Source of the DNA: an uncultured Comamonadaceae bacterium
GTDB taxonomy: Bacteria > Pseudomonadota > Gammaproteobacteria > Burkholderiales > Burkholderiaceae
DNA length: 25,854 bases
Assembly: GCA_946482595.1 (NCBI GenBank)
Contig: CAMLSD010000073.1
Coordinates: 1 to 25,854 of the forward strand
Direction of reading: 5' to 3'
Part shown: piece after piece, positions 603-16,786 of the stretch
How the letters are laid out: every line of letters starts with the position of its first letter
Numbering within the stretch: the stretch's first letter is position 1
The notes under the pieces: model-generated
What the model was told of the DNA's origin: nothing
Databases searched by the model: none
What the model saw: the letters and a program-made list of their open reading frames with translations, nothing else
Program-made: the position numbers and the translations under genes

Positions 603-1925
603 TCAGGTCTCGTCGCTGCCTTGCAGCAGCCGCTCGAAAAGATCGGGTGGCCCCATCTGGCCGCCCTTGAGCATCAGCTCGAGGCCGTCGATCGGGGCCT
701 GCTCGGCATGGGCCCGGACCAGGCTCACGCCCGGGGACAGGCTGCCGGCGTGGCTCAGCCCCCACGCGCCCAGGGCCAGCACGGCATGGCTGGAGCTGTC
801 GCCGCCGGCCACGCCGACACGGCGCACCTGCGGTGCCAGCCGCACCGTGCGGGCGAGCAGGCGCGCACAGGCCTGTGCGAGCTCGTGTGATGGCAGGCTG
901 AGGTCGTGCTGGCTGGGCGTGTGGGCCAGCACCGAGCATCCCTGCTGCAGCAAGCCGGCGGCCTGTCCGGCCACACGCTCGACTTCGTGGTCGCTCGCGA
1001 CCAGCGCCTGTGCATCCAGGGCCAGCCGTTCGAACGATGGTCCGGCGCGCTGAACCTGTGCGGCGGTCACCGGCGAGAGGCTGCCTGCCAGCACGAAGAC
1101 CGGCCCGGTGGCGGGCGCAATGCCGGGTGTGTGCCGCGCCTCGCGTCGAGCCGGGTCGCCGGGCCAGTGGCTCAGCAGAGCCTGGGCCACGCTGCTGGCA
1201 CCCACGGCCAGCAGGGGCGCTCGCGCTGCCTCGCGCCACAGCATGCGGCCGAGCGGCGGCAGGTCGTCGGCACTCAGCACGTCGAACAGGATACCGGCCG
1301 GATGTGACGCCAGGCCGTCCTGGACGGCCCGCTGCAGCTCGGCATCGCCGCCGCGGATGCTGCGCCAGTCGACCAGGGCCAGGTCATCCAGCCCTTGTGC
1401 TGCCAGGTGGCGCCGCAGGTCCGCCTCATGCATCGGCGTGACCGGGTGCACGCTCATCGTGGGATGCCGGTCGATGCGGTGGACGGGACCGCCCTGTCCC
1501 GCGGCGGCAAACAGGTGACCGAACGCGCAATGGCGCCCCAGGCTGGGCTGGCCGCCCAGGATGGCAAGCAGCCCGGGCTCGGGTGCGGCACGGCGCATCA
1601 GGCGCACCGCGGTGGCAAGGTTGCCCACCTGCGGCGCGCTGTCAAAGGTCGAGCAGCACTTGTAGTGGATCACCCGGGCGCCGGTCGCCGCAAGAAAGCG
1701 CGCCACCGGTTTGAGTGCCATGCTCATGCGTTCCGGGTCGAGCGAACGCGCCGCGCCGGCCACTCCCACCACGTCCAGCGGCCCGGTGGCCTGAAGGTGC
1801 CGATCCTGCGGTACGCCCAGGAACAGCATGGCGCGCAGGCCGCCGCGGGCCACGGTGGACAGCGTGTCGGTGGCGCCGGTGAAGTCGTCACCGTAGTACG
1901 CGTAGTGCACGGCCGGTTCAGCCAT
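603..1925 (-). CDS. Four-carbon acid sugar kinase family protein (DUF1537; OtnK/OiaK-like)
   Basis: This 440-residue protein matches the two-domain DUF1537 kinase family, which phosphorylates small acid sugars or 3-oxo acids with ATP (known members OtnK, DtnK, OiaK). The N-terminal substrate domain shows YYGDDFTGATD at residues 10-20 and YKCCSTFDSAP at 88-98. The C-terminal nucleotide-binding domain shows VAGGDSSS at 372-379 and LMLKGGQMGPPDLF at 417-430. An upstream in-frame extension to 2192 exists but is arginine/proline-rich antisense of the RLP gene. The ATG at 1925 gives the family N-terminus and overlaps the RLP stop by 8 bases. Pairing with an RLP is the arrangement known for 3-oxo-isoapionate kinase (OiaK), so OiaK is the best guess. 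The substrate is not proven. Confidence 0.9.
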   Translation of the reverse strand: MAEPAVHYAYYGDDFTGATDTLSTVARGGLRAMLFLGVPQDRHLQATGPLDVVGVAGAARSLDPERMSMALKPVARFLAATGARVIHYKCCSTFDSAPQVGNLATAVRLMRRAAPEPGLLAILGGQPSLGRHCAFGHLFAAAGQGGPVHRIDRHPTMSVHPVTPMHEADLRRHLAAQGLDDLALVDWRSIRGGDAELQRAVQDGLASHPAGILFDVLSADDLPPLGRMLWREAARAPLLAVGASSVAQALLSHWPGDPARREARHTPGIAPATGPVFVLAGSLSPVTAAQVQRAGPSFERLALDAQALVASDHEVERVAGQAAGLLQQGCSVLAHTPSQHDLSLPSHELAQACARLLARTVRLAPQVRRVGVAGGDSSSHAVLALGAWGLSHAGSLSPGVSLVRAHAEQAPIDGLELMLKGGQMGPPDLFERLLQGSDET

Positions 1926-3192
1926 GGGCCTTGCCGAAGAAGTCGAGTGCGGCGCGCAGCTCGGGGCATGACGCTGCGGCGGCGTCGAGCGGCTGGCCGT
2001 CACGCACCGCAGCCCAGGCCTGACGCAGGCTGGCCACGCCGGCGGCCGCGCCACCCGGGTGCGCCAGGATGCCGCCGCCGGCCATGAACAGCAGGTCAGC
2101 CTCCGGCACCGCCTGCACGGTGGCGGGCAGGGTGCCGGCCCACTGCCCGGACGAAAACGCCGGCATGACACGGTCGCCGAGGTCGGCCGCATCGGCCAGC
2201 GGCGTGAGGCAGTCGCGTGCCGAACGCACTACCTCATCGTCCGCTTGAGAGAACTTGCCGGCCAGCCCGTGCACATGCATGTGGTCCACACCGGCCAGCC
2301 GCCACATCAGCTGGTAGGGCTGGAAGTCCATGCCCAGGGCCGGATGGCGCGAGTACATGCCGAAGCCGTTGCGGTGGCCATGCACGATCAGATCGCTGTG
2401 CCGCCGCAGCGCCTGGATCGCGCTGAACCCGCACCAGTTGAGGCTGGCCATCACGCAGTGCCCGCCCTCGCGCGCGACCAGCTCGGCGTGCCGCAGCATG
2501 GCATCGTGTTCGTCGGTGATGTTGAAGGCCACCAGCACCTGCTTGCCGCTGCGCTCACGCCAGCGGCGCACCTCGGCCATCACGGCGCGGATGCGAGTGT
2601 CGATGGGTGCGTGCTCGCTGTTGGCGTTGACCTCGTCGTCCTTGATGAAGTCGACCCCCGCTTCGCACAGGCGGGCAACGAGCGCGGCGGTGCCCTCGGC
2701 GCTCAGGCCCACGTTGGGCTTGATGATCGTGCCCACCAGCGGCCCATGGGGCACGCCAGCCAGCGCACGCGTGCCGGCCACGCCATGGCGAGGGCGCTCG
2801 AAGCCGGCGCGCCAGGGGGCCGGCACCTGCAGATGCTCCAGTCGCACGCCGGTGGTTTCACCCAGGTCGTACAGGTTGCCGGCCACGGTGGCGGCCAGCG
2901 TGGGCAGGTTGTGGCCGATGTTGGCCAGCGGAAAGGCCACCCTCACCCGGGCACGGCGCCACGGGCCACGCAGTCCTTGCCGCTCGATCCACTGGCTGGG
3001 CAGGCTGGGCGCCGGTGCAGGTTCGAGTTCTTCGATGTGTTCGACACCAGCCCGGCTGCGCAAGCGCAGCTCGTCGCTTTCGCCCTCGACACGCACGAAG
3101 GTGCCGCTGCTCTGCTCGCCGGCCAGCACCTCGGCCACGGCGGCCGGCTCCAGCGGCGTTTCGATCAGGTAGGTGGCGTGCAGGGTGTTCAC
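1918..3192 (-). CDS. RuBisCO-like protein (form IV large-chain homologue; OiaX/OiaT-type candidate)
   Basis: At 424 residues this is shorter than true RuBisCO large chains (about 460-475), as expected of a RuBisCO-like protein. Aligning motifs by eye with the RuBisCO active site gives E26 (E60), T31 (T65), N106 (N123), K158 in GTIIKPN (K175), K184-D185-D186-E187 (carbamylated K201, D203, E204), H273-R274 (H294-R295), H306 (H327), K313 (loop-6 K334), S347 (S379) and the phosphate-binding GGG at 372-374. Differences include W66 to F32 and K177 to N160. The start is GTG, overlapping the VOC stop as GTGA, so translation is probably coupled. With the adjoining DUF1537 kinase, the known parallel is an RLP acting on 3-oxo-isoapionate 4-phosphate (decarboxylase OiaX or transcarboxylase/hydrolase OiaT). 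Carbon fixation is unlikely. Confidence 0.93.
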   Translation of the reverse strand: MNTLHATYLIETPLEPAAVAEVLAGEQSSGTFVRVEGESDELRLRSRAGVEHIEELEPAPAPSLPSQWIERQGLRGPWRRARVRVAFPLANIGHNLPTLAATVAGNLYDLGETTGVRLEHLQVPAPWRAGFERPRHGVAGTRALAGVPHGPLVGTIIKPNVGLSAEGTAALVARLCEAGVDFIKDDEVNANSEHAPIDTRIRAVMAEVRRWRERSGKQVLVAFNITDEHDAMLRHAELVAREGGHCVMASLNWCGFSAIQALRRHSDLIVHGHRNGFGMYSRHPALGMDFQPYQLMWRLAGVDHMHVHGLAGKFSQADDEVVRSARDCLTPLADAADLGDRVMPAFSSGQWAGTLPATVQAVPEADLLFMAGGGILAHPGGAAAGVASLRQAWAAVRDGQPLDAAAASCPELRAALDFFGKAHG

Positions 3193-3728
3193 AGGCGGCT
3201 CAGGTCGGGAAAGGGGCGCACCGGGTCCTGGCCATCCCAGTCGACGCTGGCCTCACGGATGAGCTGGAACATGCGGCCCTTGGGTCCGGCCACCTCCGAC
3301 AGCTCGATCACGGCACCGGGGTGGAACTCGGTGTCGAAGTAGATGAAGCGCCCGCGCTCGCCGACCTCACCCTGCATCACCGGTTGCCAGCCCAGCGACA
3401 GCAGGCGTGCAAGATCGCTGTCGTAGCTTTCGGTCCAGTAGGCCACATGCTGCAAACCGCTGCGCCCGCCTTGCTGGAAGTCGCGGTACATCGAGGGCAC
3501 GTCGTTGCGCGTCTGGATCAGCTCGACCTGCACGCCGCCGGCATTGGCCAGGGCGACCGAATTGTGCGGCTCGTGCGCTTCGCCTCGGTAGACGTAGTTG
3601 CGGATCGGCACGCGGGGGTTGTAGAACCACGGGCCCACGCCGAGCACCCGGCTCCAGTGGTCCATCGCGGCCTCGATGTCGGGCACGACATAGCCGAGCT
3701 GGCGGATCTCGCCAAGGTGTCGGCTCAT
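3189..3728 (-). CDS. VOC superfamily protein (glyoxalase/epimerase fold)
   Basis: This 179-residue protein has two vicinal-oxygen-chelate repeats like methylmalonyl-CoA epimerase and related Glyoxalase_4 proteins. The first repeat begins IRQLGYVVPDIEAAMDHW and the second GLQHVAYWTESYDSDL. Likely metal ligands are Q10, E69, H94 and E142, close in spacing to the H/Q/H/E set of methylmalonyl-CoA epimerase. VOC proteins often stabilise an enolate on a metal, so an isomerase or epimerase acting on the acid-sugar intermediate is a reasonable inference, but no specific reaction is known. An in-frame ATG at 3773 exists. The ATG at 3728 is preferred because GAGG lies 7 bases upstream and the family fold begins there. 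Its end overlaps the GTG start of the RLP gene. Confidence 0.88.
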   Translation of the reverse strand: MSRHLGEIRQLGYVVPDIEAAMDHWSRVLGVGPWFYNPRVPIRNYVYRGEAHEPHNSVALANAGGVQVELIQTRNDVPSMYRDFQQGGRSGLQHVAYWTESYDSDLARLLSLGWQPVMQGEVGERGRFIYFDTEFHPGAVIELSEVAGPKGRMFQLIREASVDWDGQDPVRPFPDLSRL

Positions 3729-3816
3729 GGCTGCGCCTCGCGCAGGAAGGTCGCACCCGGCATGAGGGAGCAACAGGACGGGGTGGGCACGGGCAGGGTC
3801 ATCGCAAGGGCTTCCA

Positions 3817-5097
3817 TCAGTTCACGAGCAGGTTGGGCAGCCATGTGGACACGGCCGGCACGAAGGTCACCACTGCCAGCGACACCAGCAGGGCAAACAG
3901 GAAGGGCAGGGCACCGGTCACGACACGGTGCATCGGCATGCGTGCGATCGAACTCACCATGTACAGGCTCATGCCCACCGGCGGCGTGAGCAGGCCGATC
4001 ATCAGGTTGAGCACCACGATCACGCCCAGCTGCACCGGGTCGACCCCGGCGGCCAGCAGGGCCGGTGTGAGGATGGGCGCGAGGATCAGGATGGCGGCGA
4101 TCGACTCCATCACCATGCCCACCACCAGCAGCAGCAGGTTCACCAGCAGCAGCAGGACGACGGGATCACGCGACAGTCCGAGCAGGAATTCACTGGCCCG
4201 GGTGGGCACCTGATCGATCGTCAGCACCCAGGCGAACAGCGCCGCCGATCCCACGATGAACAGCACGCTGGCCGTCGAGTGCACGGTCTCGCGTGCGGCG
4301 GCCACCACGGCCGCCCAGGTCAGGCGCCGATACACCAGCGTGCCGAGCACCAGCGCGTAAAGCACGGTGATGCCGGCCACTTCGGTCGGGCCGAACAGGC
4401 CGCTGACCAGCCCGCCCACCAGGATCACCGGGGCGAGCAGTGCGGGTGCGGCCACCACGGTGCGCCGCGCCAGCGCGCCCCAGGAAAAGACCACCGTGTC
4501 GCGCGGCAGGTTCTGGCGCCGCGCCATGATGCCGATCTGCAGCATCAGCAGGGCGGCGATGATCAGCGCAGGGATGGCGCCGGCCAGCAGCAGCTTGACG
4601 GCGGACACCTCGGCGGCCGCAGCAAAGATGATGAGCGGGATGCTGGGTGGGAAGATCGGCCCGATGGTGGCCGCAGCCATCGTGATGCCGGCGGCGAATT
4701 CGTCGCGATAGCCTTGTGCCCGCATCTCGCGGATCTGCGTGCCGCCGAGTGCGCCGATGTCGGCCAGGGCCGCGCCCGAGATGCCCGAGAACACCAGGTT
4801 GGCCAGCACCGTGACATGGCCCAGGCCGCCGCGGATGCGGCCCACGGCCAGGCGGATCAGCGCAAACAGGTGTTCGGTGATGCCCGAGGCGCCGAACAGT
4901 GCGGCAGCCAGAATGAACATCGGCACGGCCAGCAGCGGCACCGAGTCGAGTGCGTTGATGGTGCGCTGCGCCACGACGGCCAGGGGCAGGTCGGCCCACC
5001 AGATCACAAGCCCGGCCGACACACCCATCGACACGGCGATCGGCAGGCCCATCAGCATCGTCACCACAAACAGCACCAGCACGGCCAGGCTCATCAT
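3817..5097 (-). CDS. dctM: TRAP transporter large permease subunit DctM
   Basis: The 426-residue protein is hydrophobic along nearly its whole length and matches the DctM family (about 12 membrane segments). This subunit carries the translocation path and the sodium coupling of TRAP importers. Family-typical parts include the start MMSLAVLVLFVVTMLMGLPIAVSMG, the segment FSGISGAALADIGALG near residues 103-118 and PPVGMSLYMVSSIA near 374-387. Its ATG overlaps the stop of dctQ as ATGATG, so the two integral-membrane subunits are translationally coupled. It lies between dctQ and the VOC gene in the acid-sugar cluster, which implies that the imported carboxylate feeds the kinase/RLP enzymes. About 90 bases separate its stop from the VOC gene. 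Confidence 0.95.
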   Translation of the reverse strand: MMSLAVLVLFVVTMLMGLPIAVSMGVSAGLVIWWADLPLAVVAQRTINALDSVPLLAVPMFILAAALFGASGITEHLFALIRLAVGRIRGGLGHVTVLANLVFSGISGAALADIGALGGTQIREMRAQGYRDEFAAGITMAAATIGPIFPPSIPLIIFAAAAEVSAVKLLLAGAIPALIIAALLMLQIGIMARRQNLPRDTVVFSWGALARRTVVAAPALLAPVILVGGLVSGLFGPTEVAGITVLYALVLGTLVYRRLTWAAVVAAARETVHSTASVLFIVGSAALFAWVLTIDQVPTRASEFLLGLSRDPVVLLLLVNLLLLVVGMVMESIAAILILAPILTPALLAAGVDPVQLGVIVVLNLMIGLLTPPVGMSLYMVSSIARMPMHRVVTGALPFLFALLVSLAVVTFVPAVSTWLPNLLVN

Positions 5098-5615
5098 GGC
5101 GTGGCTCCCTGGGCCGCGGGCGCGACCGGGCGAGCACGTACCGCGCGGGTCAGGCGGCGCACGGCCACCAGCGTGAAGAACACCATCCCCACCATCGCGG
5201 GCAGGTAGTACAGCCAGTTGGGCAGGCCCAGCGCGGGTGTCGAGAACTTCGCCGCGCGCTGCATGAAGGCCCAGCCGCCCCAGAGGAACAGTGCGCAGAA
5301 CACCACCGTCAGCAGCTCGTTGATGACCGACAGCACGACGGCCGGCGCGCCGCGCAGCCGCGAGGACAGCATGTCGACGCGCACATGGCGGTCCTGCTGC
5401 AGCAGCAGCGGAATGGTCAGGTAGACCAGGCCCAGGCCGCTGTAGCGGGCCAGCTCGTCGGCCCAGGGCCAGCCGGCCTGGAAGAGGTCGCGTCCCACGA
5501 TCTGCAGCAGCACGAGGGTCGTCATCACACCCAGCAGGATCATCGCGATCCGTTCGAGCACATGGCAGGCGCGGGTGAGCAGGTCTGCACTGCTGGTGCA
5601 GGCGGTGGCCGTCAT
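5094..5615 (-). CDS. dctQ: TRAP transporter small permease subunit DctQ
   Basis: This 173-residue protein has four membrane segments (about residues 22-40, 54-73, 96-117 and 134-152) and the DctQ signature region GRDLFQAGWPWADELARYSGLGLVYL followed by HVRVDML. It forms the membrane complex with DctM. The reading frame is open up to 5672, but the ATG at 5615 is chosen because GGAG stands 7 bases upstream and the extra residues are hydrophilic and unlike the family. A gap of about 80 bases, holding a hairpin and a tandem repeat, separates it from dctP, while its end overlaps dctM. Confidence 0.92.
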   Translation of the reverse strand: MTATACTSSADLLTRACHVLERIAMILLGVMTTLVLLQIVGRDLFQAGWPWADELARYSGLGLVYLTIPLLLQQDRHVRVDMLSSRLRGAPAVVLSVINELLTVVFCALFLWGGWAFMQRAAKFSTPALGLPNWLYYLPAMVGMVFFTLVAVRRLTRAVRARPVAPAAQGATP

Positions 5616-5643
5616 GGCGGGTCTCCGTGAATCAAGGGTCGGT

Positions 5644-5684
5644 GCGCCACGCACACGAGGTGCGTGGTGCAACGTGGTGCAACG
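5644..5684 (-). promoter_or_regulatory. Intergenic hairpin and 10-bp tandem repeat between dctP and dctQ
   Basis: A 7-bp perfect inverted repeat (ccacgca at 5647-5653, tgcgtgg at 5661-5667, 7-base loop) sits between dctP and dctQ. Two more outer pairs follow after one mismatch. It overlaps a 10-bp tandem repeat, tggtgcaacg at 5665-5674 and 5675-5684. No U-run follows. Stem-loops after binding-protein genes often protect the upstream mRNA or reduce readthrough, so that more binding protein is made than permease. That role is inferred. Confidence 0.45.
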
Positions 5685-5697
5685 TGACGCGTGGCGG

Positions 5698-6717
5698 TCA
5701 GCGCACGGCCGCGATGTCCTTGTACAGGTCGCCGTAGCGGGCGCTGAACTTCTCTGCCACCAGTTTGCCCACCGAGGCCTTGAAGCTGTCGAGCTTCAGG
5801 CCGTTCTCAGGCCCGATCACGGTCATCTTCAGCTCCTTCAGCTTCGTGAGCTCTTCGCCTTCCTGGGCCTGCACGCTCTGCGTGGCCCGGTTGCGCACTT
5901 CAAGCGCGGCCTTGCTCACGGCCTCGCGCTGCGCCGGGCTCAGGCCCTGCCAGGCCTTTTCGTTGATCACGATGACCTGTGCGTTCATCACGTGGCCGGT
6001 CAGCATCAGGTGCGACTGCGATTCATACAGCTTGCTCGACAGCACCACGTTGACCGGGTTCTCCTGACCGTTGACCACACCCGTGGCCAGCGCGGTGGGC
6101 ACCTCGGACCAGTCCACCGGCACCGGCACGGCACCCAGGCCCTGCACCGCGGTCATGTAGATCGGGAACGGGATGGAACGGATCTTCATCCCCGCCAGGT
6201 CGGACGGCTGCGTCACGGCCTTTCTTGTCGTCAGATGGCGCGTGCCGAAGTAGTAGGCGTAGAGCACCCGCACGCCCGCAGCCTGCACCAGGCCGTCATT
6301 GAGCTTTTTCATCACCGGCGAGTTGACGTCGACGACCTTCATCAGGTGATCGACGTCGCGGTAGAGATAGGGTGTGTCGAGCGCTGCGAAGGGCTCGTGC
6401 AGCGAACCGATACCGGCGGCGGTGTTGTGAGACAGCGCGATGGTGCCGGTGGACACGGCCTCGGCCAGCTCCTGCAGCTTGCCCAGTTGTGAAGACGGAT
6501 ACACGGTGACCTTGATCTGCCCGCCGGTGTGCCGCGCGATGGCTTCGGCCAGCCAGGTGGCCTGCATGCCCGCCGCACTGTTCGGTGGGTTCATGTGCCC
6601 GTAGCGGAACTCGATGGTCTTCTGGGCCAGGGCCGTGCCCGTGGCGCACAGGGTGAGCGTGGCGGCAACTGCGGCGGCAAGGCGTCGGCGGGCGGAGGAA
6701 AGGTGGCTTGGCAACAT
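5698..6717 (-). CDS. dctP: TRAP transporter solute-binding protein DctP
   Basis: This 339-residue periplasmic protein begins with a signal peptide (arginine-rich start, hydrophobic AAAVAATLTLCATG, likely cut after ALA near residue 31). The mature part starts TIEFRYGHMNPPNSAAG, typical of DctP-family receptors for organic acids. The stretch AGMKIRSIPFPIY near residues 176-188 contains the conserved arginine that pairs with the substrate carboxylate. GQENPVNVV follows as in the family. Two adjacent ATG codons exist (6720 and 6717). The second lies 5 bases from AGGAG and is preferred; the first would be only 2 bases away. It is the first gene of the acid-sugar cluster and faces the LacI regulator, so the regulator probably controls it. 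The ligand is unknown, most likely a sugar acid or other carboxylate. Confidence 0.94.
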   Translation of the reverse strand: MLPSHLSSARRRLAAAVAATLTLCATGTALAQKTIEFRYGHMNPPNSAAGMQATWLAEAIARHTGGQIKVTVYPSSQLGKLQELAEAVSTGTIALSHNTAAGIGSLHEPFAALDTPYLYRDVDHLMKVVDVNSPVMKKLNDGLVQAAGVRVLYAYYFGTRHLTTRKAVTQPSDLAGMKIRSIPFPIYMTAVQGLGAVPVPVDWSEVPTALATGVVNGQENPVNVVLSSKLYESQSHLMLTGHVMNAQVIVINEKAWQGLSPAQREAVSKAALEVRNRATQSVQAQEGEELTKLKELKMTVIGPENGLKLDSFKASVGKLVAEKFSARYGDLYKDIAAVR

Positions 6718-6734
6718 CATGTCTCCTGGGGTGT

Positions 6735-6831
6735 AATTGATGCGATCTGATGAGGCATCATCAACTTCTGTGACTGAAGATATGCCCCAGAGACGCCACA
6801 GGTCAATCAGATCTGTTGATGCAAATTGATG
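6735..6831. promoter_or_regulatory. Divergent promoter/operator region between dctP and the LacI-type gene
   Basis: This AT-rich stretch contrasts with the GC-rich neighbourhood and contains several short repeats. GATCTGAT at 6744-6751 recurs inverted as ATCAGATC at 6806-6813. AATTGATG occurs directly at 6735-6742 and 6824-6831. TGATGC at 6738-6743 faces GCATCA at 6755-6760 (11-base gap). CAGATCTG at 6808-6815 is a perfect palindrome. The two copies of GATCTGAT are about 62 bp apart centre to centre, so a pair of operators bound by the adjacent LacI-family protein is plausible. Exact operator limits and -35/-10 boxes could not be fixed. Confidence 0.5.
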
Positions 6832-6845
6832 TGACTTGAGAGGCC

Positions 6846-7886
6846 ATGAAACCCGATCCGATTGTGCGCAGCCGCATTGCCGACATCGCCGCGGCGGCGG
6901 GTGTGTCCACCGCCACCGTCGACCGGGTGCTGCACGGGCGGCCCAATGTGCGCGCCGGCACGGCGCAGCGGGTGCTCAAGGCGGCATCGGCCCTGGGCTA
7001 CCTGCCCGAGGGCCAGCTCGCGCAGGTGGGCCGTCCTGCCCCGTTGCAACTGAGCTTCCTGTTGCCGGCCGGCAGCAACCGCTACCTGCGCATGCTGGGC
7101 GAGACGGTGTCGTACAGCGCCGACCAACTGGCGCCCTACAACGTGCGCTGTCGGGTGCATCAGGTCGAGGGGTTCAATCCGCAGGTGCTGGCCGAGCGGC
7201 TGCTGCACCATGGCCGGCGCAGCGATGGGGTTGCCTTCATGGCGCTCGAACATCCGCTGGTGCGCGAGGCCGTGCACCAGCTCGCCGAGATGGGCGTGCC
7301 GGTGGTCACGCTCGTGTCCGATCTCTCGAACTCGCGGCGTGCGGCCTACGTGGGGCTGGACAACCGGGCTGCCGGACGCACGGCCGCGCTGCTGCTCGGG
7401 CGGTTCATCGGCCCGCGGCCGGCCACGGTGGCGCTGATCGCCGGCAGCCGCAGTTACCGTGGGCACGAAGAGCGCGAAATGGGGTTCCTGAGCCTGATCG
7501 AGGAGATGTTCCCGCAGCTCCAGGTGGCGGGCCTGCGTGAAGGGCATGACGATGCCGACACCAACCATCGACAGACCCGGGCTCTGCTGGAGCAATACCC
7601 CACGCTGGCCGGGATCTACAACATCGGCGGCGCGTCGGACGGGATCGCGCGTGCCCTGAAGGAGAGCGGGCGCGACCAGAAGGTCGTGTTCATCGGTCAC
7701 GGACTCTCGCCGGACACACGTTCGCTCCTGATCGACGGCACGCTCGATGCCGTGATCACCCAGAGCCCGCAGAGCGTGGTGGGCAATGCGGTGCGAATCT
7801 TCCGCAATCTGCGGGATGGCCGTGACGCGATGGCCGGCGTCGAGGCGCTGCGCCTGAACCTGGTGCTGCGCGAGAACCTGCCCTGA
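6846..7886 (+). CDS. LacI family transcriptional regulator of the acid-sugar cluster
   Basis: The 346-residue protein has an N-terminal LacI helix-turn-helix (RIADIAAAAGVSTATVDRVLHGR, residues 10-32, with the TVDRVL variant in place of TVSRVL) followed by the hinge RAGTAQRVLKAASALGYLP. A periplasmic-binding-protein-like effector domain fills the rest (for example SDGVAFMALEHPLVREA and GIYNIGGASDGIARAL). It is transcribed away from dctP, with 128 bases between the two start codons, and is the only regulator next to the TRAP/VOC/RLP/kinase cluster, so it most likely controls that cluster and itself in response to an intermediate. The start ATG follows GAGAGG closely (2 bases), but the family N-terminus supports it. 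Confidence 0.92.
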   Translation: MKPDPIVRSRIADIAAAAGVSTATVDRVLHGRPNVRAGTAQRVLKAASALGYLPEGQLAQVGRPAPLQLSFLLPAGSNRYLRMLGETVSYSADQLAPYNVRCRVHQVEGFNPQVLAERLLHHGRRSDGVAFMALEHPLVREAVHQLAEMGVPVVTLVSDLSNSRRAAYVGLDNRAAGRTAALLLGRFIGPRPATVALIAGSRSYRGHEEREMGFLSLIEEMFPQLQVAGLREGHDDADTNHRQTRALLEQYPTLAGIYNIGGASDGIARALKESGRDQKVVFIGHGLSPDTRSLLIDGTLDAVITQSPQSVVGNAVRIFRNLRDGRDAMAGVEALRLNLVLRENLP

Positions 7887-7908: not shown

Positions 7909-8228
7909 GCGACCAGCAGCCCCACCAGCAGGCCCACCGCCGCGGCCACACCCATCGCCCCGTAAGGGTGCGAGTGCACGGTCTGGTCGGCAGCCCGGGC
8001 GGCCTGGCGCGCGCGGTGCAGCGCCGAGTGCTCGAGCTCGTCGAGCTGCATGCGCAACTCGCGCAACTGGTGCTCGATGCGCTGACGCGCTTCGTCGAAC
8101 TTCTGGTCGCCGGCCAGTGCGGCCGACTTCAGCAGATGGTCGGCCTCGTCCACCATGTGGCGCAGGCTGTCGGTGACGCGGTCCTTGGTGGCGCCATTGG
8201 CGGAACTGGAAGTGGTGCTGGTGCTCAT
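7899..8228 (-). CDS. DUF883 family inner-membrane protein (ElaB/YqjD-like)
   Basis: This 109-residue protein has the DUF883 plan. A polar, serine/threonine-rich start is followed by a long amphipathic helical region rich in Q, E, R and L (about residues 30-75), then HPYGAMGVAAAVGLLVGLLVARR at the C-terminus, which is a single tail-anchor membrane helix ending in RR. Related ElaB/YqjD proteins of Escherichia coli are inner-membrane proteins reported to bind ribosomes in stationary phase or stress; whether this one does is not shown. ATG at 8228 is chosen because AAGGA lies 6 bases upstream and matches the family start. The much longer open frame upstream is antisense of the peroxidase gene. 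Confidence 0.9.
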   Translation of the reverse strand: MSTSTTSSSANGATKDRVTDSLRHMVDEADHLLKSAALAGDQKFDEARQRIEHQLRELRMQLDELEHSALHRARQAARAADQTVHSHPYGAMGVAAAVGLLVGLLVARR

Positions 8229-8268
8229 GGTGTGTCCTTCATGGTTGGTGGCGGATCCCGGGATGCAC

Positions 8269-8287
8269 GACGCTGGCGTGCAGCGTC
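8269..8287. repeat. Perfect 7-bp inverted repeat in the divergent DUF883/peroxidase region
   Basis: gacgctg (8269-8275) and cagcgtc (8281-8287) form a perfect inverted repeat with a 5-base loop in the 165-base gap between two divergent genes. It could be a regulator site or a leader hairpin of the DUF883 gene. Nothing else in this gap was recognised. Confidence 0.35.
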
Positions 8288-8393
8288 CAATTTCGCGCCA
8301 GCGCCAACGCCCGGCTTGCGTTGCGTCAAGCAAGCTGCAGGCAGTGCATGCCATCGTGTCCGCCAGGGTTGCGGGCAGGTGGAGGCATCGAGC

Positions 8394-9536
8394 ATGGACA
8401 GGACCGGAACGCCAGGACATTGCCGCGGGGCGTGGGGCGATCAGCCGCCATCTCTCGTGTCCACCGTCCTGACCTTGCCGGGCCGGGCGGGGGTCGTCAA
8501 CCGTGTGCATGACGTGGACGTGGGCATTGCGGCGCGGCAGCCCGCACGCTGGCTGGCGCGCGGCGCGGCCGCGGCACTGGCTGCCGGGCTGCTGGCCTGG
8601 AGCGCGGACAGCCGCTGCGCACCGCGTGAACCGGTCGAGCCCATCCGTGCGGCCCGCGTCACCGACGCCGCAAAGGTCGAGCTGGGCAAGAAGCTGTTCT
8701 TCGACCCGCGCCTGTCGCGTTCGGGCTTCATCTCGTGCAACTCGTGCCACAACCTCAGCCTGGGTGGCAGCGACAATCTGCGCTCGTCCATCGGCCACCA
8801 GTGGCAGCGCACCACCCTGAACGCGCCCACGGTGCTCAATGCCGGGCTGAACGTGGCGCAGTTCTGGGACGGGCGTGCCCGCGACCTGCAGCAGCAGGCG
8901 CACGAGTTGAGCAGCCATCCGCCTGAACTCGCGATGGCCCACGACCTGGCCCTCGAGGTGCTGCAGTCCATTCCGGGGTATGTGCGCGAGTTCAACCGCG
9001 TGTTCGGACGCGGCCCGATCGACATGTCGCGCGTGGCCCAGGCGATCTCGGTTTTCGAAGAGACGCTGGTCACGCCGAACGCGCGCTTCGATCAGTGGCT
9101 GCGAGGCAAGCGCACGGCCTTGACGCAGGAGGAGCTGAGTGGCTACCTGCTGTTCAAGCAGAGCGGCTGCACCGCCTGCCACTACGGCGCAGCCCTGGGC
9201 GGGCGCTCGTTCGAGCGCATGGGCCTGCTCGAACCCTATCGGTCACGGGTCTATGCGCTGGGCCGCGAGGCCGTGACCGGCGACGAGGCGCATCGTTTCA
9301 CCTACAAGGTGCCCACGCTGCGCAATATCGAGCTGACGCCGCCGTACTTTCACGACGGGGCGGCAGCCACCCTGGCCGAGGCGGTCGACGTGATGGGCCG
9401 GTTGCAGCTCGGGCGGTCGTACACCGAGGCCGAGACCCGGCGCATCGTGGCGTTTCTCAAGACCTTGACGGGCGAGCAGCCGCGGATCGTGCTCCCGGTG
9501 CTGCCGCCCTCGTCGGACCAGACGCCGCGCCCCTGA
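8394..9536 (+). CDS. Di-haem cytochrome c peroxidase family protein
   Basis: The protein (380 residues from this start) belongs to the bacterial di-haem cytochrome c peroxidase/MauG family, which reduces hydrogen peroxide in the periplasm with electrons from small cytochromes. Both c-type haem motifs are visible: CNSCH at 115-119 and CTACH at 259-263. Family segments include LGKKLFFDPRLS (97-108), TLNAPTVLNAGLNVAQFWDGRA (141-162), MGLLEPY (276-282, possible Met ligand) and VPTLRNIELTPPYFHDGA (306-323). A hydrophobic segment at 57-69 would export or anchor it. The ATG at 8394 has GGAGG 8 bases upstream, but it gives a long leader before the hydrophobic segment. A GTG near 8505 or 8520 would make a more usual signal peptide, so the start is uncertain. 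Confidence 0.9.
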   Translation: MDRTGTPGHCRGAWGDQPPSLVSTVLTLPGRAGVVNRVHDVDVGIAARQPARWLARGAAAALAAGLLAWSADSRCAPREPVEPIRAARVTDAAKVELGKKLFFDPRLSRSGFISCNSCHNLSLGGSDNLRSSIGHQWQRTTLNAPTVLNAGLNVAQFWDGRARDLQQQAHELSSHPPELAMAHDLALEVLQSIPGYVREFNRVFGRGPIDMSRVAQAISVFEETLVTPNARFDQWLRGKRTALTQEELSGYLLFKQSGCTACHYGAALGGRSFERMGLLEPYRSRVYALGREAVTGDEAHRFTYKVPTLRNIELTPPYFHDGAAATLAEAVDVMGRLQLGRSYTEAETRRIVAFLKTLTGEQPRIVLPVLPPSSDQTPRP

Positions 9537-10558: not shown

Positions 10559-12061
10559 TCACGGTGTGGACGCTGCAGGTTCGCTGGGGGGCGGCACCTG
10601 CAGGTCGGCCGCAGACGGCGTCTCATTGCCGAAGTCCGAGGGGCCGGAGTTCTGCAGGATCTCGACGGCCTGGTCGGTGTCGAGTTTTTCCGGGGCGTCG
10701 AGGAAGCTGGTCACCGTGGACGGCACGAAGATCACCACCAGCACCAGGATCAGCTGCATCGCCACCCAGGGCACCGCGCCCAGATAGATGTCGCGCGATT
10801 CGACCTTCACCGGCAGCGACTTGTTCTTGAACAGCGTGTCGGAGATGCCGCGCAGGTAGAACAGCGCAAAGCCGAAGGGCGGGTGCATGAAGCTGGTCTG
10901 CATGTTCACGCACAGCAGCACGCCGAACCAGATCAGGTCGATGCCCAGTTTCTCGGCCACCGGTGCGAGCAGCGGCAGGATGATGAACGCGATCTCGAAG
11001 AAGTCGAGGAAAAACGCGAGGAAGAAGATGAAGAGGTTGACCGCGAGCAGGAAGCCGGTCTGGCCGCCGGGCAGGTCGGACAGCATGTGTTCGATCCACA
11101 GCCCGCCGTCCACGCCCTGGAAGACCAGCGAGAACACGCGCGAGCCGATCAGGATGAACACGACCATCGCGGTGATGCGCATGGTGCCGGCCATCGTGGC
11201 CTGCACCAGCGGCCAGCTCAGGCGGCGGTGCAGCGCGGCGAGCACGAAGGCTCCGACCGCACCCATGGCTCCGGCCTCGGTGGGCGTGGCCACAGCGGTG
11301 TCGATGCCCGGCAGGCCACCCATGCTGCCCAGCACCGCGAAGATCAGCACGGCGGACGGGATGATGCCGCGCAGGCACTTCTTCCACAGGGCCCAGCCCT
11401 GCAGGGTGCGGGCTTCCTTGGGCACGCCGGGCAGCGCGTTCGGACGCAGCCGCGTGAGCACGAAGGTGTAAAGCGCAAAGATCAGCACCTGCAGGATGGC
11501 CGGTCCCCAGGCCCCCTTGTACATGTCGCCCACCGAGCGGCCGAGCTGGTCGGCCAGCACCACCAGCACCAGCGAGGGCGGCACGAGCTGGGTGATCGTG
11601 CCGGAGGCGGCCAGCACGCCGGTGGCATAGCGCATGTTGTAGCCGTAGCGCTGCATCACCGGCAGCGCGATCATCGCCATGGCAATCACCTGGCCGGCCA
11701 CCGTGCCGGTGATGGCCCCCAGGATGAAACCGACGATGATCACCGAGTAGCCCAGGCCGCCGCGCACCGGGCCGAACAACTGCCCCATGGAGTCGAGCAT
11801 GTCCTCGGCCAGGCCGCACTTCTCGAGCACGGCACCCATCATCGTGAAAAAGGGAATGGCCAGCAGCAGGTCGTTCGACAGGATGCCGAACACGTTCAGC
11901 GGCAGGGCCTGCATGAAGGCCGGCTGGAACCAGCCCATGTGGATCGCGAACAGGCCACAGCCCAGGCCCAGCGCGGCCAGCGAAAACGCCACCGGAAAGC
12001 CCAGCAGCATCGTGATGATCAGGCCGCAGAACATCAGCGGCGCGAAGTTCTCCATGCTCAT
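10559..12061 (-). CDS. TRAP transporter large permease (mannitol/chloroaromatic-type DctM)
   Basis: This 500-residue membrane protein is the larger form of DctM, with an extended C-terminal hydrophilic tail (after about residue 460) and an inserted loop around 205-235 (TRLRPNALPGVPKEARTLQGW). These features are typical of the TRAP subfamily annotated for mannitol/chloroaromatic compounds (FcbT3-like). Motifs include GAITGTVAGQVIAMAMIALPVM and MQTSFMHPPFGFALFYLRG. Its ATG overlaps the dctQ stop by 4 bases. No binding-protein gene flanks the pair within this window, so the transporter is incomplete here; the receptor is presumably encoded elsewhere. The substrate is unknown. Confidence 0.93.
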   Translation of the reverse strand: MSMENFAPLMFCGLIITMLLGFPVAFSLAALGLGCGLFAIHMGWFQPAFMQALPLNVFGILSNDLLLAIPFFTMMGAVLEKCGLAEDMLDSMGQLFGPVRGGLGYSVIIVGFILGAITGTVAGQVIAMAMIALPVMQRYGYNMRYATGVLAASGTITQLVPPSLVLVVLADQLGRSVGDMYKGAWGPAILQVLIFALYTFVLTRLRPNALPGVPKEARTLQGWALWKKCLRGIIPSAVLIFAVLGSMGGLPGIDTAVATPTEAGAMGAVGAFVLAALHRRLSWPLVQATMAGTMRITAMVVFILIGSRVFSLVFQGVDGGLWIEHMLSDLPGGQTGFLLAVNLFIFFLAFFLDFFEIAFIILPLLAPVAEKLGIDLIWFGVLLCVNMQTSFMHPPFGFALFYLRGISDTLFKNKSLPVKVESRDIYLGAVPWVAMQLILVLVVIFVPSTVTSFLDAPEKLDTDQAVEILQNSGPSDFGNETPSAADLQVPPPSEPAASTP

Positions 12062-12597
12062 TGCAGCGGCCTTTCGTAGTGGGTGTCCATCTCATGGCGG
12101 TGCATGAGCCAGCCCACGCGCTTGATCGTCTCGCCCAGGCCCTGCAGCAACACGAGCGCAAAACCCAGTGGCAGCATCAGCATGGCTGGCCAGCGCACCA
12201 GGCCGCCGGCATTGCCCGACATCTCGCCGGTGCGCCACATCTGGGTGAACAGCGGCCACGACATCGCGAGCATGGCCACCATCACCGGCACCAGGAAGAA
12301 CAGCAGGCCGAACAGGTCGACGAACACCTTGCCGCGGCCGCTGAGCCGACCGTAGAAGATGTCCACGCGCACATGCTCGTTCATGCGCAGCACCTGCGAG
12401 GCGCCCAGCATCACGCAGGCGGCAAACAGGTACCACTGGATCTCCAGCCAGGCGTTGGAGCTGGTGCTGAACAGGTAGCGGATGAAGGCATTGCCGGCGC
12501 TGATGCCGCACGAGATGATCACGGCGTACTTGGCCAGCACGGCAAATCGATCGGTGAGCCAGTCGATCCACCGCGTGATCGCGAGCAGGGTGTCCAT
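12058..12597 (-). CDS. TRAP transporter small permease subunit (DctQ type)
   Basis: This 179-residue four-helix membrane protein (about residues 22-38, 53-70, 92-116 and 139-158) has the DctQ features WLEIQWYLFAACVMLGASQVLRMNEHVRVDIFY. It partners the large permease encoded immediately downstream, with which it shares a 4-base ATGA overlap. The frame is open to 12660, but the ATG at 12597 has GGAG 5 bases upstream and gives the family N-terminus. It is the first gene of its transcript and faces the two-component system genes across about 170 bases, so that system is a candidate regulator by position only. Confidence 0.9.
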   Translation of the reverse strand: MDTLLAITRWIDWLTDRFAVLAKYAVIISCGISAGNAFIRYLFSTSSNAWLEIQWYLFAACVMLGASQVLRMNEHVRVDIFYGRLSGRGKVFVDLFGLLFFLVPVMVAMLAMSWPLFTQMWRTGEMSGNAGGLVRWPAMLMLPLGFALVLLQGLGETIKRVGWLMHRHEMDTHYERPLQ

Positions 12598-12704
12598 GGT
12601 GTCTCCAGAGAGTCGCTGCCTGGCCTGCGGCGCGGCAGCTGTTGTGGGGCCGGCCGCCACTGTAGGGAGCGGGACCTGAGTTGTGGCTGAACGCGGCCGC
12701 AGGT

Positions 12705-12723
12705 TTTACGCCGCGTTTACGCC
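12705..12723. promoter_or_regulatory. 11-bp-period direct repeat upstream of the two-component system
   Basis: tttacgcc occurs at 12705-12712 and again at 12716-12723, a perfect 8-base direct repeat with a start-to-start distance of 11 bases. Tandem half-sites on one helical turn are the usual target of OmpR/PhoB-type response regulators, and such a regulator is encoded directly downstream. The repeat lies 47 bases before the kinase start and about 108 bases before the divergent dctQ start. Binding is inferred. Confidence 0.45.
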
Positions 12724-12769
12724 TGGCGCGTGCACGCGGGCCGGCCTGTTTTTGGGACACTGTGGAGCC

Positions 12770-13882
12770 ATGACAGCGCACCCGCCCACCCCTGCCCGAC
12801 GACTGCATCCGGCCTGGACCGGCAGCGTCATCGTGCTGGCGGCCACCGGCCTGTGTGCGCTGCTGGAGCGGCATTTCGGGCTGGCCAATCTGGTGCTCGT
12901 CTACACCGCCGGCGTGATCGTCATGGCCTTGCAGCACGGTCGCATCGCGACGCTTTCGGTCAGCGCGGCCAGCATCGCGCTGCTCGACTTCATCTTCGTG
13001 CCGCCGCGCTGGGGCTTCAAGCCCACCGACCCGCAGTACTACTTCACCTTTGCGGTGATGGCCGCGCTGGGCTGGCTGGTCAACGAGTTGGCGCAGCGGG
13101 TGCGCCGCGAAGCCGAGCGTTCGGCGGCGCGCGCCCGGCGCGCCCAGGCGCTGGCGCTGGAACGCGCCGAGTATCAGGCGCGCAGCACCCAGGCACAGAT
13201 CGAGTCGGCCACCGAGCGGCAGCGCAACACCTTGCTGGCCAGCATCTCGCATGACTTTCGCACGCCGCTCACGACGATCATCGGAGCGGCCACCAGCCTG
13301 CGTGAGCAGGAGGGCCAGTTGCCGCCTGAAGCCCGTCGGGAGCTGCTGTCCAGTGTCGAGCACGAGGCGCGGCGGCTGCATGCCCTGAGCAGCAACCTGC
13401 TGGAGCTGGCCGGACTGCAGCGCGGCGCCGTGCAGCCGCAGCTGCAATGGTGTCCGGCCGACGAGCTGGTGGGCGAGGCCTGCGCGGCCTTGGGCGAGCG
13501 GCTCGACCGCCTCACGCTGCAGGTCGAGGTCGACGCGCACGCGCTGGTGTGGTGCGACCCGCAGCTGATGCAGCAGTTGCTCGTGAACCTGCTCGACAAC
13601 GTGGCCCGGCACACGCCGCAGGGCACCACCGCACGCATCGGTGTGGTCCCGCGCGAGGGTGCGTGTGAGGTCACCGTCATCGACCGGCACCCGGCCGACG
13701 TGGCCATGACCGAACCCGTGCCCAGCGCCGGCGGCAGCCCTCACGGCCTGGGCCTGTCGATCTGCAGCGAGATCGCACGCCTGCACGGCGGGCACCTGCG
13801 CTGGGTGGACAACGGCGGACGCAGCGTGACGGTGCACCTGCCCCAGCCGGTGGTGCCGCGTGCGGCCCTGGAGGACTGGTGA
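12770..13882 (+). CDS. Sensor histidine kinase, KdpD C-terminal-like, with altered G1 box
   Basis: This 370-residue protein resembles only the C-terminal part of KdpD. Membrane helices with a DUF4118-like bundle (about residues 15-104) are followed by a coiled linker rich in R, A and E (105-150), the phosphoacceptor domain with H161 (ISHDFRTPLTTIIGA) and a HATPase domain. The N box is present (LLVNLLDNVARHT, 270-282), as is GLGL at 326-329. The G1 box, normally DxGxG, reads DRHPA at 305-309, so both glycines are missing and the ATP lid is short. The usual KdpD N-terminal sensor and Usp domains (KdpD is about 890 residues) are absent, and no kdpFABC genes are near. The ATG at 12770 follows GGAG by 2 bases. 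It overlaps the regulator gene by one base. Confidence 0.9.
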   Translation: MTAHPPTPARRLHPAWTGSVIVLAATGLCALLERHFGLANLVLVYTAGVIVMALQHGRIATLSVSAASIALLDFIFVPPRWGFKPTDPQYYFTFAVMAALGWLVNELAQRVRREAERSAARARRAQALALERAEYQARSTQAQIESATERQRNTLLASISHDFRTPLTTIIGAATSLREQEGQLPPEARRELLSSVEHEARRLHALSSNLLELAGLQRGAVQPQLQWCPADELVGEACAALGERLDRLTLQVEVDAHALVWCDPQLMQQLLVNLLDNVARHTPQGTTARIGVVPREGACEVTVIDRHPADVAMTEPVPSAGGSPHGLGLSICSEIARLHGGHLRWVDNGGRSVTVHLPQPVVPRAALEDW

Positions 13883-14631
13883 TGCCGATCGATCCCCCGC
13901 TGGCCGCCCCGCTCGCCGCCCATGTGCTGGTGGTCGAAGACGAGGAGCCCATCCGGCGCATGCTCGTGACGACCCTGGAGGCCGCCGGCTACCGCGTCAG
14001 TGAGGCCCGCACCGCGCGCGAGGGCGAGACACTCGCGGGCAATCGACGCATCGACCTGTGCCTGATCGACCTGGGCCTGCCCGACGGCGACGGCATCGAG
14101 CTCATCCGGCGGCTGCGGGCCTGGACCCAGCGGCCGCTGATCGTGTTGTCGGCCCGCTCGCAGGAGTCGCAGAAGGTGCTGGCGCTCGACGCCGGCGCGG
14201 ATGACTTCCTGGCCAAGCCTTTCGGCGTGGCCGAGCTGCATGCCCGCATCCGCGTGGCCTTGCGTCATGCCGCACGCAGCTCGCAGCAGGGGCACAGCCG
14301 GCTCAGGGTCGGCGAGGCGCTGATCGACCTGCAGCGCCGGCAGCTGCTGCGCAGCTCACCCGACGGCTGGAACCCTGTGCGCCTGTCGGCCACCCAGTGG
14401 CGGCTGCTGGAGGTGCTGGCGCAGCATGCGGGCCGGCTGGTCACCGGGTCGGCGCTGATGCGCGAGGTCTGGGGCCCGGCGCTGTCCGATCAGGGGCACT
14501 ACCTGCGCATCTATGTGCGGCAGTTGCGGTTGAAGATCGAACCCCAGCCGTCGCAACCGCGCTACCTGCTGACCGAGGCAGGCATCGGCTACCGGCTGGA
14601 GGCCCAGCCCTGCGAGGACGATTCAGTCTGA
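13882..14631 (+). CDS. OmpR/KdpE-type response regulator
   Basis: The 249-residue protein has a receiver domain (LVVEDEEPIRRML, acceptor aspartate in CLIDLGLPDGDG, conserved lysine in FLAKPFG) and a C-terminal winged helix (LSATQWRLLEVLAQHAGRLVTGSALMREVWG through YLRIYVRQLRLKIEP to TEAGIGYRL). This is the KdpE-like order. It would be phosphorylated by the kinase encoded immediately upstream. The ATG at 13882 overlaps the kinase stop (TGATG) and has GGAGG 7 bases upstream; a GTG one codon earlier is less well spaced. The targets are unknown. The 11-bp direct repeat upstream of the kinase gene and the divergent TRAP genes are candidates. Confidence 0.93.
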   Translation: MPIDPPLAAPLAAHVLVVEDEEPIRRMLVTTLEAAGYRVSEARTAREGETLAGNRRIDLCLIDLGLPDGDGIELIRRLRAWTQRPLIVLSARSQESQKVLALDAGADDFLAKPFGVAELHARIRVALRHAARSSQQGHSRLRVGEALIDLQRRQLLRSSPDGWNPVRLSATQWRLLEVLAQHAGRLVTGSALMREVWGPALSDQGHYLRIYVRQLRLKIEPQPSQPRYLLTEAGIGYRLEAQPCEDDSV

Positions 14632-15528
14632 GCGGGCGGCCACGATGTCGGCCACCGCTTCGGCCACGAGCTGGCGGATGTCGGCCAGCAGGCGCGAGCG
14701 GTCGTCCACGCGGTAGTTCATGACCACCGGGCTGGTGAGATCGGGGTCGGACAGCGCGCGATAGACCAGGCCCTCGCGGTGCAGCCCCTGCACCGACTGC
14801 GGCACCAGCGCATAGCCCACGCCGGCCACGACCAGGCCGATGGCGGTCTGCAGCTCGTTGGCCTCCAGCGCGATCACCGGGCGCAGGCCGCGCGCCTGGA
14901 ACATCGCCAGCACCTGATCGGCATAGCTGGGCCTTGGCCGCGCCGGATACAGCAGCAGGGGCTGCGTGGCCAGCCGGGCCAGGCTCGGGCGCTTCTGCCG
15001 TGCCAGCGCATGGCCGGCGGGCAGGGCCGCCACCACCGCCTCGCGTCGCACCACCTCGCCGGCCACGCGGGCGTCCTCGAGCATCAGGCGACCAAAACCC
15101 ACGTCGATGCGACCGGCCTTCAGGGCCTCGATCTGCTGCACGGTGGTCAGCTCGGACAGGCCGACCTCCACCTGCGGGTGGGCCGCGCGGAAGCGGCGGA
15201 TCACCTCGGGCAGTGCGCCATACAGCGTGGACGGCACAAAGCCGATGCTGAACCAGGTGCGTCCGCCGCGCGCAATGCGTGTGGTGGCGGTGCAGGCCTC
15301 GTCCAGGCGTTCGAGCATCTGGCGTGCCTGCCCCTGGAAGAACTGCCCGGCCGCGGTGAGCTTCAGCGGCCGCGCGCTGCGGTCGAACAGTTCGGCACCG
15401 AGCTCGTCCTCGAGCTGGCGGATCTGCCGGCTCAGCGGTGGCTGGGCGATGTGCAGCGCGAGCGCGGCCCGGCTGAAGTTGAGTTCGCGCGCCACGGCCA
15501 GGAAGTAGCGCAGATGCCGGAGTTCCAT
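14623..15528 (-). CDS. catR: LysR-type regulator of the catechol branch (CatR/BenM family)
   Basis: This 301-residue LysR protein begins MELRHLRYFLAVARELNFSRAALALHIAQPPLSRQIRQLEDELGAELFDRS, the N-terminal helix-turn-helix typical of CatR, CatM and BenM. The effector domain runs from about residue 90 (FSIGFVPSTLYGALPEVIRRFRA) to the end. In the family, cis,cis-muconate is the inducer. It is divergent from catBCA with 75 bases between, where a perfect ATAC-N7-GTAT site lies. That site starts 5 bases upstream of its ATG, so it would also repress its own gene. AAGG lies 8 bases before the ATG. Its stop overlaps the end of the response regulator gene by 9 bases, tail to tail. Confidence 0.93.
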   Translation of the reverse strand: MELRHLRYFLAVARELNFSRAALALHIAQPPLSRQIRQLEDELGAELFDRSARPLKLTAAGQFFQGQARQMLERLDEACTATTRIARGGRTWFSIGFVPSTLYGALPEVIRRFRAAHPQVEVGLSELTTVQQIEALKAGRIDVGFGRLMLEDARVAGEVVRREAVVAALPAGHALARQKRPSLARLATQPLLLYPARPRPSYADQVLAMFQARGLRPVIALEANELQTAIGLVVAGVGYALVPQSVQGLHREGLVYRALSDPDLTSPVVMNYRVDDRSRLLADIRQLVAEAVADIVAARSD

Positions 15529-15532
15529 GTCG

Positions 15533-16776: not shown

Positions 16777-16786
16777 GGACCCCACC

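Follow-up and report, generated by a model that had tools for sequence, protein, structure and literature searches.

RuBisCO-like proteins (RLPs) are a test bed for the evolution of RuBisCO chemistry, and many RLP clades have no assigned function. The pathway from D-apionate via 3-oxo-isoapionate, reportedly described by Carter et al. in 2018 and quoted in PMC6302742, employs ApnO, OiaK and either OiaX or OiaT. According to PMC6302742, RLPs decarboxylate, or transcarboxylate and hydrolyse, 3-oxo-isoapionate 4-phosphate. For L-threonate, PMC12540250 gives a dehydrogenase, a 2-oxo to 3-oxo isomerase, a DUF1537 kinase and a decarboxylase. We analyzed a DNA stretch of 25,854 nucleotides from an uncultured Comamonadaceae bacterium (assembly GCA_946482595.1, contig CAMLSD010000073.1; hereafter the window), in which an RLP and a DUF1537 kinase are encoded together with a VOC-fold protein, a TRAP transporter and a LacI-type regulator. 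This locus is best explained as a self-contained operon under LacI control that takes up and degrades a single small sugar acid.

The locus resembles the D-apionate pathway in that an RLP gene stands beside a DUF1537 kinase gene, the genes often overlapping, in its uptake by TRAP or ABC systems and in the conserved main catalytic residues of the RLP. It differs in having a VOC gene instead of that for a PGDH_C/KARI_N oxidoisomerase, in being without a lactonase, a Gfo/Idh dehydrogenase and triose-phosphate-isomerase-like (TIM-like) or RpiB-like isomerases, and in that its RLP and kinase fall into separate clades, below the OiaX and OiaK family cut-offs. With the L-threonate/D-erythronate pathway (LtnD, OtnI, OtnK, OtnC; PMC12540250) it would share the logic of 2-oxo acid, isomerase and DUF1537 kinase as well as the carboxyl loss from a 3-oxo acid 4-phosphate. 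Here, however, the VOC protein would replace OtnI, and the RLP replaces the aldolase-II type OtnC; neither an OtnI nor an OtnC gene is present in the operon, all genes at 603–7886 falling into other Pfam families. Pathways with an RLP and a DUF1537 kinase are known. A VOC-dependent, oxidation-free version with clades of its own was not found in the literature searched, i.e., publications on RLPs, DUF1537, apiose and tetronates, mostly judged by title and with few subscription papers, and these yielded no description of a VOC-RLP-DUF1537 cassette either.

The VOC gene is part of an RLP-kinase operon

The genes lie on the minus strand in the order dctP-dctQ-dctM-VOC-RLP-kinase, from 6720 down to 603. 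The TRAP solute-binding protein DctP (5698–6720, Pfam DctP) is followed by the small permease DctQ (5094–5615, Pfam DctQ; stop at 5094, likely ATG at 5615, with TTG/GTG at 5672 and 5654 as possible alternative upstream starts) and the large permease DctM (3817–5097, Pfam DctM and TIGR00786). After a gap of 88 nucleotides (nt) come the VOC-fold protein (3189–3728, Pfam Glyoxalase_4), the form IV RLP of a VOC-associated clade (1918–3192, GTG start, Pfam RuBisCO_large and RuBisCO_large_N) and the DUF1537 (four-carbon acid sugar) kinase (603–1925, ATG at 1925, Pfam SBD_N and NBD_C). On the plus strand, lacI diverges from this set (6846–7886); its product has a LacI helix-turn-helix (PF00356) and a periplasmic-binding-protein-like domain (Peripla_BP_4, PF13407) and is thus of LacI type. 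Neighbouring frames overlap by 4 nt in dctQ/dctM, 4 nt in VOC/RLP and 8 nt in RLP/kinase, where the ATG at 1925 lies over the RLP stop. Among the genes at 603–7886, Pfam assignments gave no dehydrogenase, oxidoisomerase or OtnI-like gene. A preliminary description of this DNA had named the seven genes, overlaps of 4 to 8 bases and the lack of a dehydrogenase or oxidoisomerase, and we find all of this at its place.

The window RLP occurs on 12 contigs, the longest of 28,428 bases. The closest genome-backed cassette among the loci compared (L127 in genome G499), drawn from the same family as Variovorax, encodes an RLP 80% and a LacI 81% identical to those of the window.

VOC and RLP occur as a near-strict pair

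The RLP alignment gave at least 80 genome loci, and 80 were surveyed by tblastn. In these 80, the kinase gene follows the RLP gene throughout. Sequence upstream of the RLP is available for 78 of them, and in 76 of these the gene immediately upstream is VOC. The contigs of the other two, L056 and L072, end at the RLP; the L072 genome has a VOC gene at another contig edge, and none was found in the incomplete genome of L056. In L011 and L081, VOC is missing beside the RLP, and no copy was found elsewhere in either genome. The adjacency of VOC and RLP is thus more than chance. The order lacI-transporter-VOC-RLP-kinase recurs on plasmids with annotation from Azospirillum, Roseomonas, Sulfitobacter, Paracoccus and Paroceanicella; Neorhizobium has it too, there with an additional SDR gene inserted after lacI, ahead of the transporter.

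We then looked at pairing in 587 genomes, i.e., 349 of the Variovorax family and 238 of the Alloyangia family, with a search that scores few candidates per genome. In the Variovorax family, VOC (called at E 1e-70 or better) was present in 17 of 349 genomes, one copy each, always directly upstream of an RLP of the window's clade. RLP matches occurred in 41 genomes, and those with a window-clade RLP were the same 17; sixteen of these RLPs are intact and score at least 711 bits, and one (G388) is interrupted by an in-frame stop. At the remaining 28 RLP places, scores do not exceed 527 bits and VOC is never adjacent. In the Alloyangia family, six of 238 genomes have VOC, the same six with an adjacent RLP (at least 598 bits, rounded), and RLPs in the other 24 RLP-bearing genomes reach at most 506 bits. 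Combined, 23 of 23 VOC genes stand beside a window-clade RLP, and 23 of 23 such RLPs beside a VOC.

For further comparison we used 91 VOC loci with 87 distinct VOC sequences, six of the loci being shorter than 6 kb. Of the gene clusters that lie within 3.5 kb but outside the cassette, none recurs in over 6 of 80 loci. We are highly confident that the cassette is real, with VOC as an intrinsic member. The coupling of VOC to the RLP/DUF1537 operon that the preliminary description had claimed is supported by the linkage in both families. The description had also named what would speak against it: VOC is missing from just 2 of 78 loci (L011 and L081), and we came upon no biochemically proven RLP clade in which VOC has a known role. 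Cupriavidus has a distant relative of VOC (L007, 50% identity, SDR-like genes nearby), which yielded no pathway clue.

The RLP and the kinase form clades of their own

Matches to PF00016 (215.4 bits) and PF02788 (27.9 bits) give the window RLP the domains of RuBisCO large chains. In an IQ-TREE quick tree of 78 RLPs (40 of 89 rows with VOC kept after thinning; support by SH-aLRT only), it belongs to a branch of 43 rows, i.e., the 40 with VOC plus L011, L056 and L072 (SH-aLRT 98). L011 is nested inside this branch and the VOC-less L081 stands just outside (SH-aLRT 100). The NCBI-named OiaX proteins (L142–L144) form a separate, distant branch (SH-aLRT 100, length 1.25), so that the window RLP lies outside the NCBI-named OiaX branch. 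The kinases of the same loci likewise make up one clade in a tree of 75 rows (43 rows, SH-aLRT 100), apart from the kinases of the NCBI-named OiaX loci. The simplest history in view of both trees is a single gain of VOC after L081 had split off, with a loss in L011. The basal lineage L081 has RLP and kinase without VOC, LacI or TRAP matches, and an M81 (MlrC-like) peptidase gene in its neighbourhood.

On NCBIfam equivalog models, the window RLP reaches 402.9 bits for OiaX (3-oxo-isoapionate-4-phosphate decarboxylase; cut-off 700), and the window kinase 294.5 bits for OiaK (3-oxo-isoapionate kinase; cut-off 700) and 164.1 bits for OtnK (cut-off 350). A sister-locus kinase scores 799 bits on the OiaK model. 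Twelve sister RLPs scanned were also below the OiaX cut-off (416–518 bits); since sister RLPs beside a presumed ApnO miss it too, the cut-off alone does not argue against 3-oxo-isoapionate as substrate. Clade and pocket residues appear to be the better argument for a separate specificity.

The closest solved relative of the RLP is PDB entry 3nwr (655.8 bits, the next PDB match 167.6); its record as shown carries neither a function nor a pathway context. Positions of the RuBisCO active site are given in spinach numbering, matched via the 3nwr alignment. The RLP keeps the equivalents of K175, K201, D203, E204, H294, R295, H327 and K334; with asparagine at the K177 position and phenylalanine or tyrosine at the H298 position it departs from the RuBisCO active site. 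Its pocket residues N160, F/Y277 and H308 are unlike those of the sister clades, and H308, G312 and E320, near the catalytic K313, are specific to VOC-clade RLPs and absent in L081. Read from the alignment, 3nwr has the clade residues N160, Y277, H308 and G312. In view of the pocket differences, the RLP substrate is probably not the same 3-oxo-isoapionate phosphate.

The VOC protein has a predicted metal site

Residues Q10, E69, H94 and E142 of the VOC protein are kept in 91 of 91 sequences. They fit the strand pattern H/Q, E, H, E, which we take to mark a metal site of the glyoxalase I/methylmalonyl-CoA epimerase type, and we accordingly predict one here. In structure searches the predicted VOC model matched methylmalonyl-CoA epimerases and a nickel glyoxalase I, i.e., the VOC fold, in Foldseek and VIA match lists that leave room for other folds. 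Hydroxyphenylpyruvate dioxygenase and hydroxymandelate synthase, VOC-fold dioxygenases, also appeared among the structure matches. The window VOC thus shares fold and Q-E-H-E pattern with methylmalonyl-CoA epimerase and glyoxalase I. It differs from methylmalonyl-CoA epimerase in scoring below the equivalog cut-off (20.7 against 114.95 bits) and in having no CoA-linked gene context.

Sister loci mostly have a presumed oxidoisomerase in place of VOC

Within the Variovorax family sample, 17 of the 28 sister RLP places were examined, and 14 of them contain a protein of about 275 residues resembling PGDH_C/KARI dehydrogenases. One was scanned and showed a PGDH_C domain along with a weak match to KARI_N; the others are at least 57% identical to it. 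We take this PGDH_C and KARI_N protein to be ApnO, D-apionate oxidoisomerase. The label fits because such a protein, annotated as PGDH_C, accompanies the NCBI-named OiaX of L142 together with a DUF1537 kinase, TIM-like and RpiB-like genes, and in L133, L135 and L145 stands beside Gfo/Idh and ABC sugar-transporter genes. Near VOC loci the presumed ApnO occurs in one of 91 (L115, genome G388), and there is none at 603–7886. In G388, an RLP-kinase cluster with Gfo/Idh and ABC-like genes (L114) lies about 14 kb from the VOC cassette L115, with the ApnO-like gene between the two; the L115 RLP frame is broken by one stop. All three elements, i.e., RLP, DUF1537 kinase and PGDH_C protein, also occur together with a GntP permease on an archaeal (Halalkalicoccus) plasmid (L136).

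A second sister group in the RLP tree comprises L110, L111, L112, L113, L131, L132 and L146. SDR or FabG-type genes are found in L110, L111, L131, L132 and L146, and L112, L113 and L131 have an ApnO-like gene. L110 and L131 lie near enolase genes and L132 near a pyruvate kinase gene, which hints at phosphoglycerate as the product in this group. The RLP-kinase loci L110, L131, L132, L138 and L146, which have SDR or FabG-type and some also TRAP genes, may represent a third type of front end, with a product that feeds into lower glycolysis. Among the VOC loci, an SDR gene lies between lacI and the transporter in five of 91 (L004, L023, L043, L061 and L064), so that some species may start from a hydroxy acid.

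Transporters vary among VOC cassettes

The transporter is of the window's TRAP type in 14 of 76 VOC loci and of another TRAP type in 52; ten have no TRAP match. Nine of these ten have an ABC amino-acid-type binding-protein cluster, the tenth (L018) an SBP_bac_3 protein. Where seen, the DctPs of the other type are 25–32% identical to window DctP and 58–63% to PDB entry 4oan, whose ligand is reportedly acetolactate. The 4oan gene adjoins an AMP-ligase gene, outside any VOC cassette, and we therefore did not take 4oan as proof of the substrate. In L103 and L104, the neighbour of the 4oan-type TRAP genes is an AMP-ligase-type gene (checked by Pfam in L103) rather than an RLP gene. Binding proteins of the 4oan type (E 1e-100 or better) are widespread, being encoded in 125 of 296 genomes from the family to which L023 belongs.

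For window DctP itself, the best PDB matches were 4pdd, 4p47, 4nq8, 4pdh and 4p9k. All are distant, at best 143 bits, and fold searches with its predicted model (mean pLDDT 74.5) named no ligand; a ligand drawn from solved TRAP proteins was therefore set aside. Erythronate and pantoate may be ligands of DctP relatives, going by what PMC11668362 says on homologous binding proteins.

A direct repeat is a candidate operator

The LacI family generally uses palindromic sites. An inverted-repeat operator proved weak. A direct repeat, CATCA-N5-CATCA, was present in the lacI-transporter intergenic region (6721–6845 in the window) of 58 of 81 loci, which are not independent cases since many are related; random stretches of the same loci gave a mean of 0.6 in 81 (next-best direct spacing, 7; inverted forms of the half-site, at most 8 of 81 at any spacing). 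Of 92 copies, 84 share one orientation. The window has two such sites, both on the minus strand, CATCAGATCGCATCA at 6738–6752 in front of dctP and CATCAATTTGCATCA at 6817–6831 in front of lacI. In L061 and L064, the repeat lies between the inserted SDR gene and dctP. We propose the repeat as a candidate operator for the LacI-type regulator.

We searched for the strict form CATCARAWNNCATCA in 12 genomes chosen as cassette carriers and found 18 sites, 15 of them at the cassette (in 10 of the 12 genomes); a reversed control pattern gave none. None of the three off-cassette sites is at a dehydrogenase gene. One, in G010 (L149:2937), lies 43 nt upstream of an MR_MLE (enolase-superfamily) gene, divergent from an aldose-epimerase-like gene, and may be real, as another target for a regulator of this kind. 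Of the others, one is inside a PP2C phosphatase gene and one is flanked by a transporter/acyltransferase gene and a DUF2145 gene. Because hardly any strict sites in these genomes lie away from the cassette, there is no sign of a co-regulated dehydrogenase, which argues for a one-operon pathway.

A possible oxidation-free route

Starting from what can be read in the sequence, i.e., gene content and order, VOC-RLP association, clade identity, the metal-site pattern of VOC, the catalytic residues of the RLP and the repeat site, we infer every reaction, the reaction order and the substrate. The TRAP system (elsewhere the other TRAP type or an ABC system) would take up an acid that already has its keto group. 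VOC, as a metal-dependent isomerase of the methylmalonyl-CoA epimerase/glyoxalase I kind, would then shift the keto group from C2 to C3 via an enediolate; it would occupy the slot of the presumed ApnO in most sister operons and do the job of OtnI in the L-threonate pathway. The DUF1537 kinase would phosphorylate the terminal hydroxyl of the 3-oxo acid, and the RLP would attack the carboxyl of the resulting phosphate, either by decarboxylation or, as for another RLP, by transcarboxylation and hydrolysis. A triose- or glycerate-level product would enter central metabolism. We propose this route because in most sister operons a presumed oxidoisomerase or an SDR converts a hydroxy acid to the 3-oxo acid, a place taken here by a probable non-redox isomerase, and because there are the L-threonate and RLP precedents. 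That VOC is a non-redox 2-oxo/3-oxo isomerase acting before the kinase is a reading to which we give slightly less than an even chance. More tentative is the wider proposal that this isomerase co-evolved with a new RLP specificity, in a redox-free keto-acid route under a direct-repeat-binding LacI repressor. We know of no VOC superfamily member that serves as keto-acid isomerase in a sugar-acid pathway.

VOC might instead epimerise C2 of the 3-oxo acid or its phosphate to the form that kinase or RLP accepts, the proton between carboxylate and ketone being acidic as in methylmalonyl-CoA. This is unlikely, as free 2-hydroxy-3-oxo acids epimerise readily unaided and an epimerase would be expected beside some sister RLPs too, whereas VOC occurs only in 17 of the 41 RLP-bearing Variovorax-family genomes, all with a window-clade RLP. 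An alpha-ketol (acyloin) rearrangement from a branched 2-oxo acid to a 2-C-branched 3-oxo acid would make VOC the isomerase half of the presumed ApnO, with oxidation before uptake or by an SDR. It agrees with the position of VOC where sister loci have the PGDH_C/KARI_N protein, with the main catalytic residues that the RLP retains from its relatives, with the ApnO-like gene and apiose-type cluster next to the cassette of G388 and with the two dioxygenases among the structure matches. The RLP pocket residues unlike those of the sister clades speak against it, we know of no VOC enzyme with redox-neutral acyloin chemistry, and we regard it as quite improbable.

Quite unlikely, too, is an import of an acid already at the 3-oxo level, on which kinase and RLP act directly while VOC works after the RLP or clears a toxic side product. 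After the RLP, VOC would isomerise a ketose phosphate and replace the TIM-like and RpiB-like proteins of the OiaX locus L142, which are not seen in VOC cassettes; some sister loci are likewise without isomerases of this sort, however. The similarity of other-type DctPs to 4oan, reportedly an acetolactate binder, would suit such an import, but 4oan belongs to no VOC cassette. Finally, an ordinary D-apionate-type pathway might be present, with oxidation encoded elsewhere and VOC as an accessory hitchhiker. The RLP and DUF1537 core is the same, and the SDR genes in five of 91 VOC loci, together with the VOC-less L011 and L081, count for this reading and against VOC as an isomerase ahead of the kinase; the SDR genes fit the isomerase as well, being expected if some hosts import a hydroxy acid. 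We nevertheless consider a hitchhiker very improbable given the 23 of 23 linkage, the separate RLP and kinase clades below the OiaX and OiaK cut-offs, the invariant metal residues and the three off-cassette operator-like sites in 12 genomes, none of which lies at a dehydrogenase gene. Of the options offered in the preliminary description, i.e., an imported 3-oxo acid, oxidation elsewhere, or isomerisation or epimerisation by VOC, oxidation elsewhere is weakened by the near-confined candidate operator (strict pattern, 12 genomes). Its undescribed acid-sugar pathway is partly supported, as a distinct RLP/DUF1537/VOC operon that as a rule has no dehydrogenase, the term acid-sugar being drawn from the protein families.

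If VOC is a sugar-acid isomerase, the VOC superfamily would gain a new reaction class, and RLP/DUF1537 pathways would have a way in that needs no oxidation. For this clade there are a close relative of solved structure (3nwr), a partner that is nearly always present, a defined kinase, a transporter and an apparent single-operon regulon, and the substrate should therefore be findable by screening a few purified binding proteins. Hosts of the cassette are common soil, plant-associated and marine bacteria, i.e., Variovorax, Paraburkholderia, Achromobacter, Azospirillum and Roseobacter-group species.

Neighbouring genes in the window

A di-haem cytochrome c peroxidase gene (CCP_MauG, 7968–9536) adjoins lacI. 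Further downstream, 14623–19079 holds a catechol ortho-cleavage set, i.e., LysR, muconate cycloisomerase-like, muconolactone isomerase and intradiol dioxygenase genes, followed by a TctC-type binding protein. Two such tripartite tricarboxylate binding proteins are encoded (17919–19079 and 24237–25298), and no permease genes matching them were found among the window genes scanned. At 10559–14631, a TRAP dctQ-dctM pair without adjacent dctP diverges from genes for a KdpE-like response regulator and a sensor kinase; the latter has DUF4118, HisKA and HATPase matches only and resembles KdpD minus its N-terminal part.

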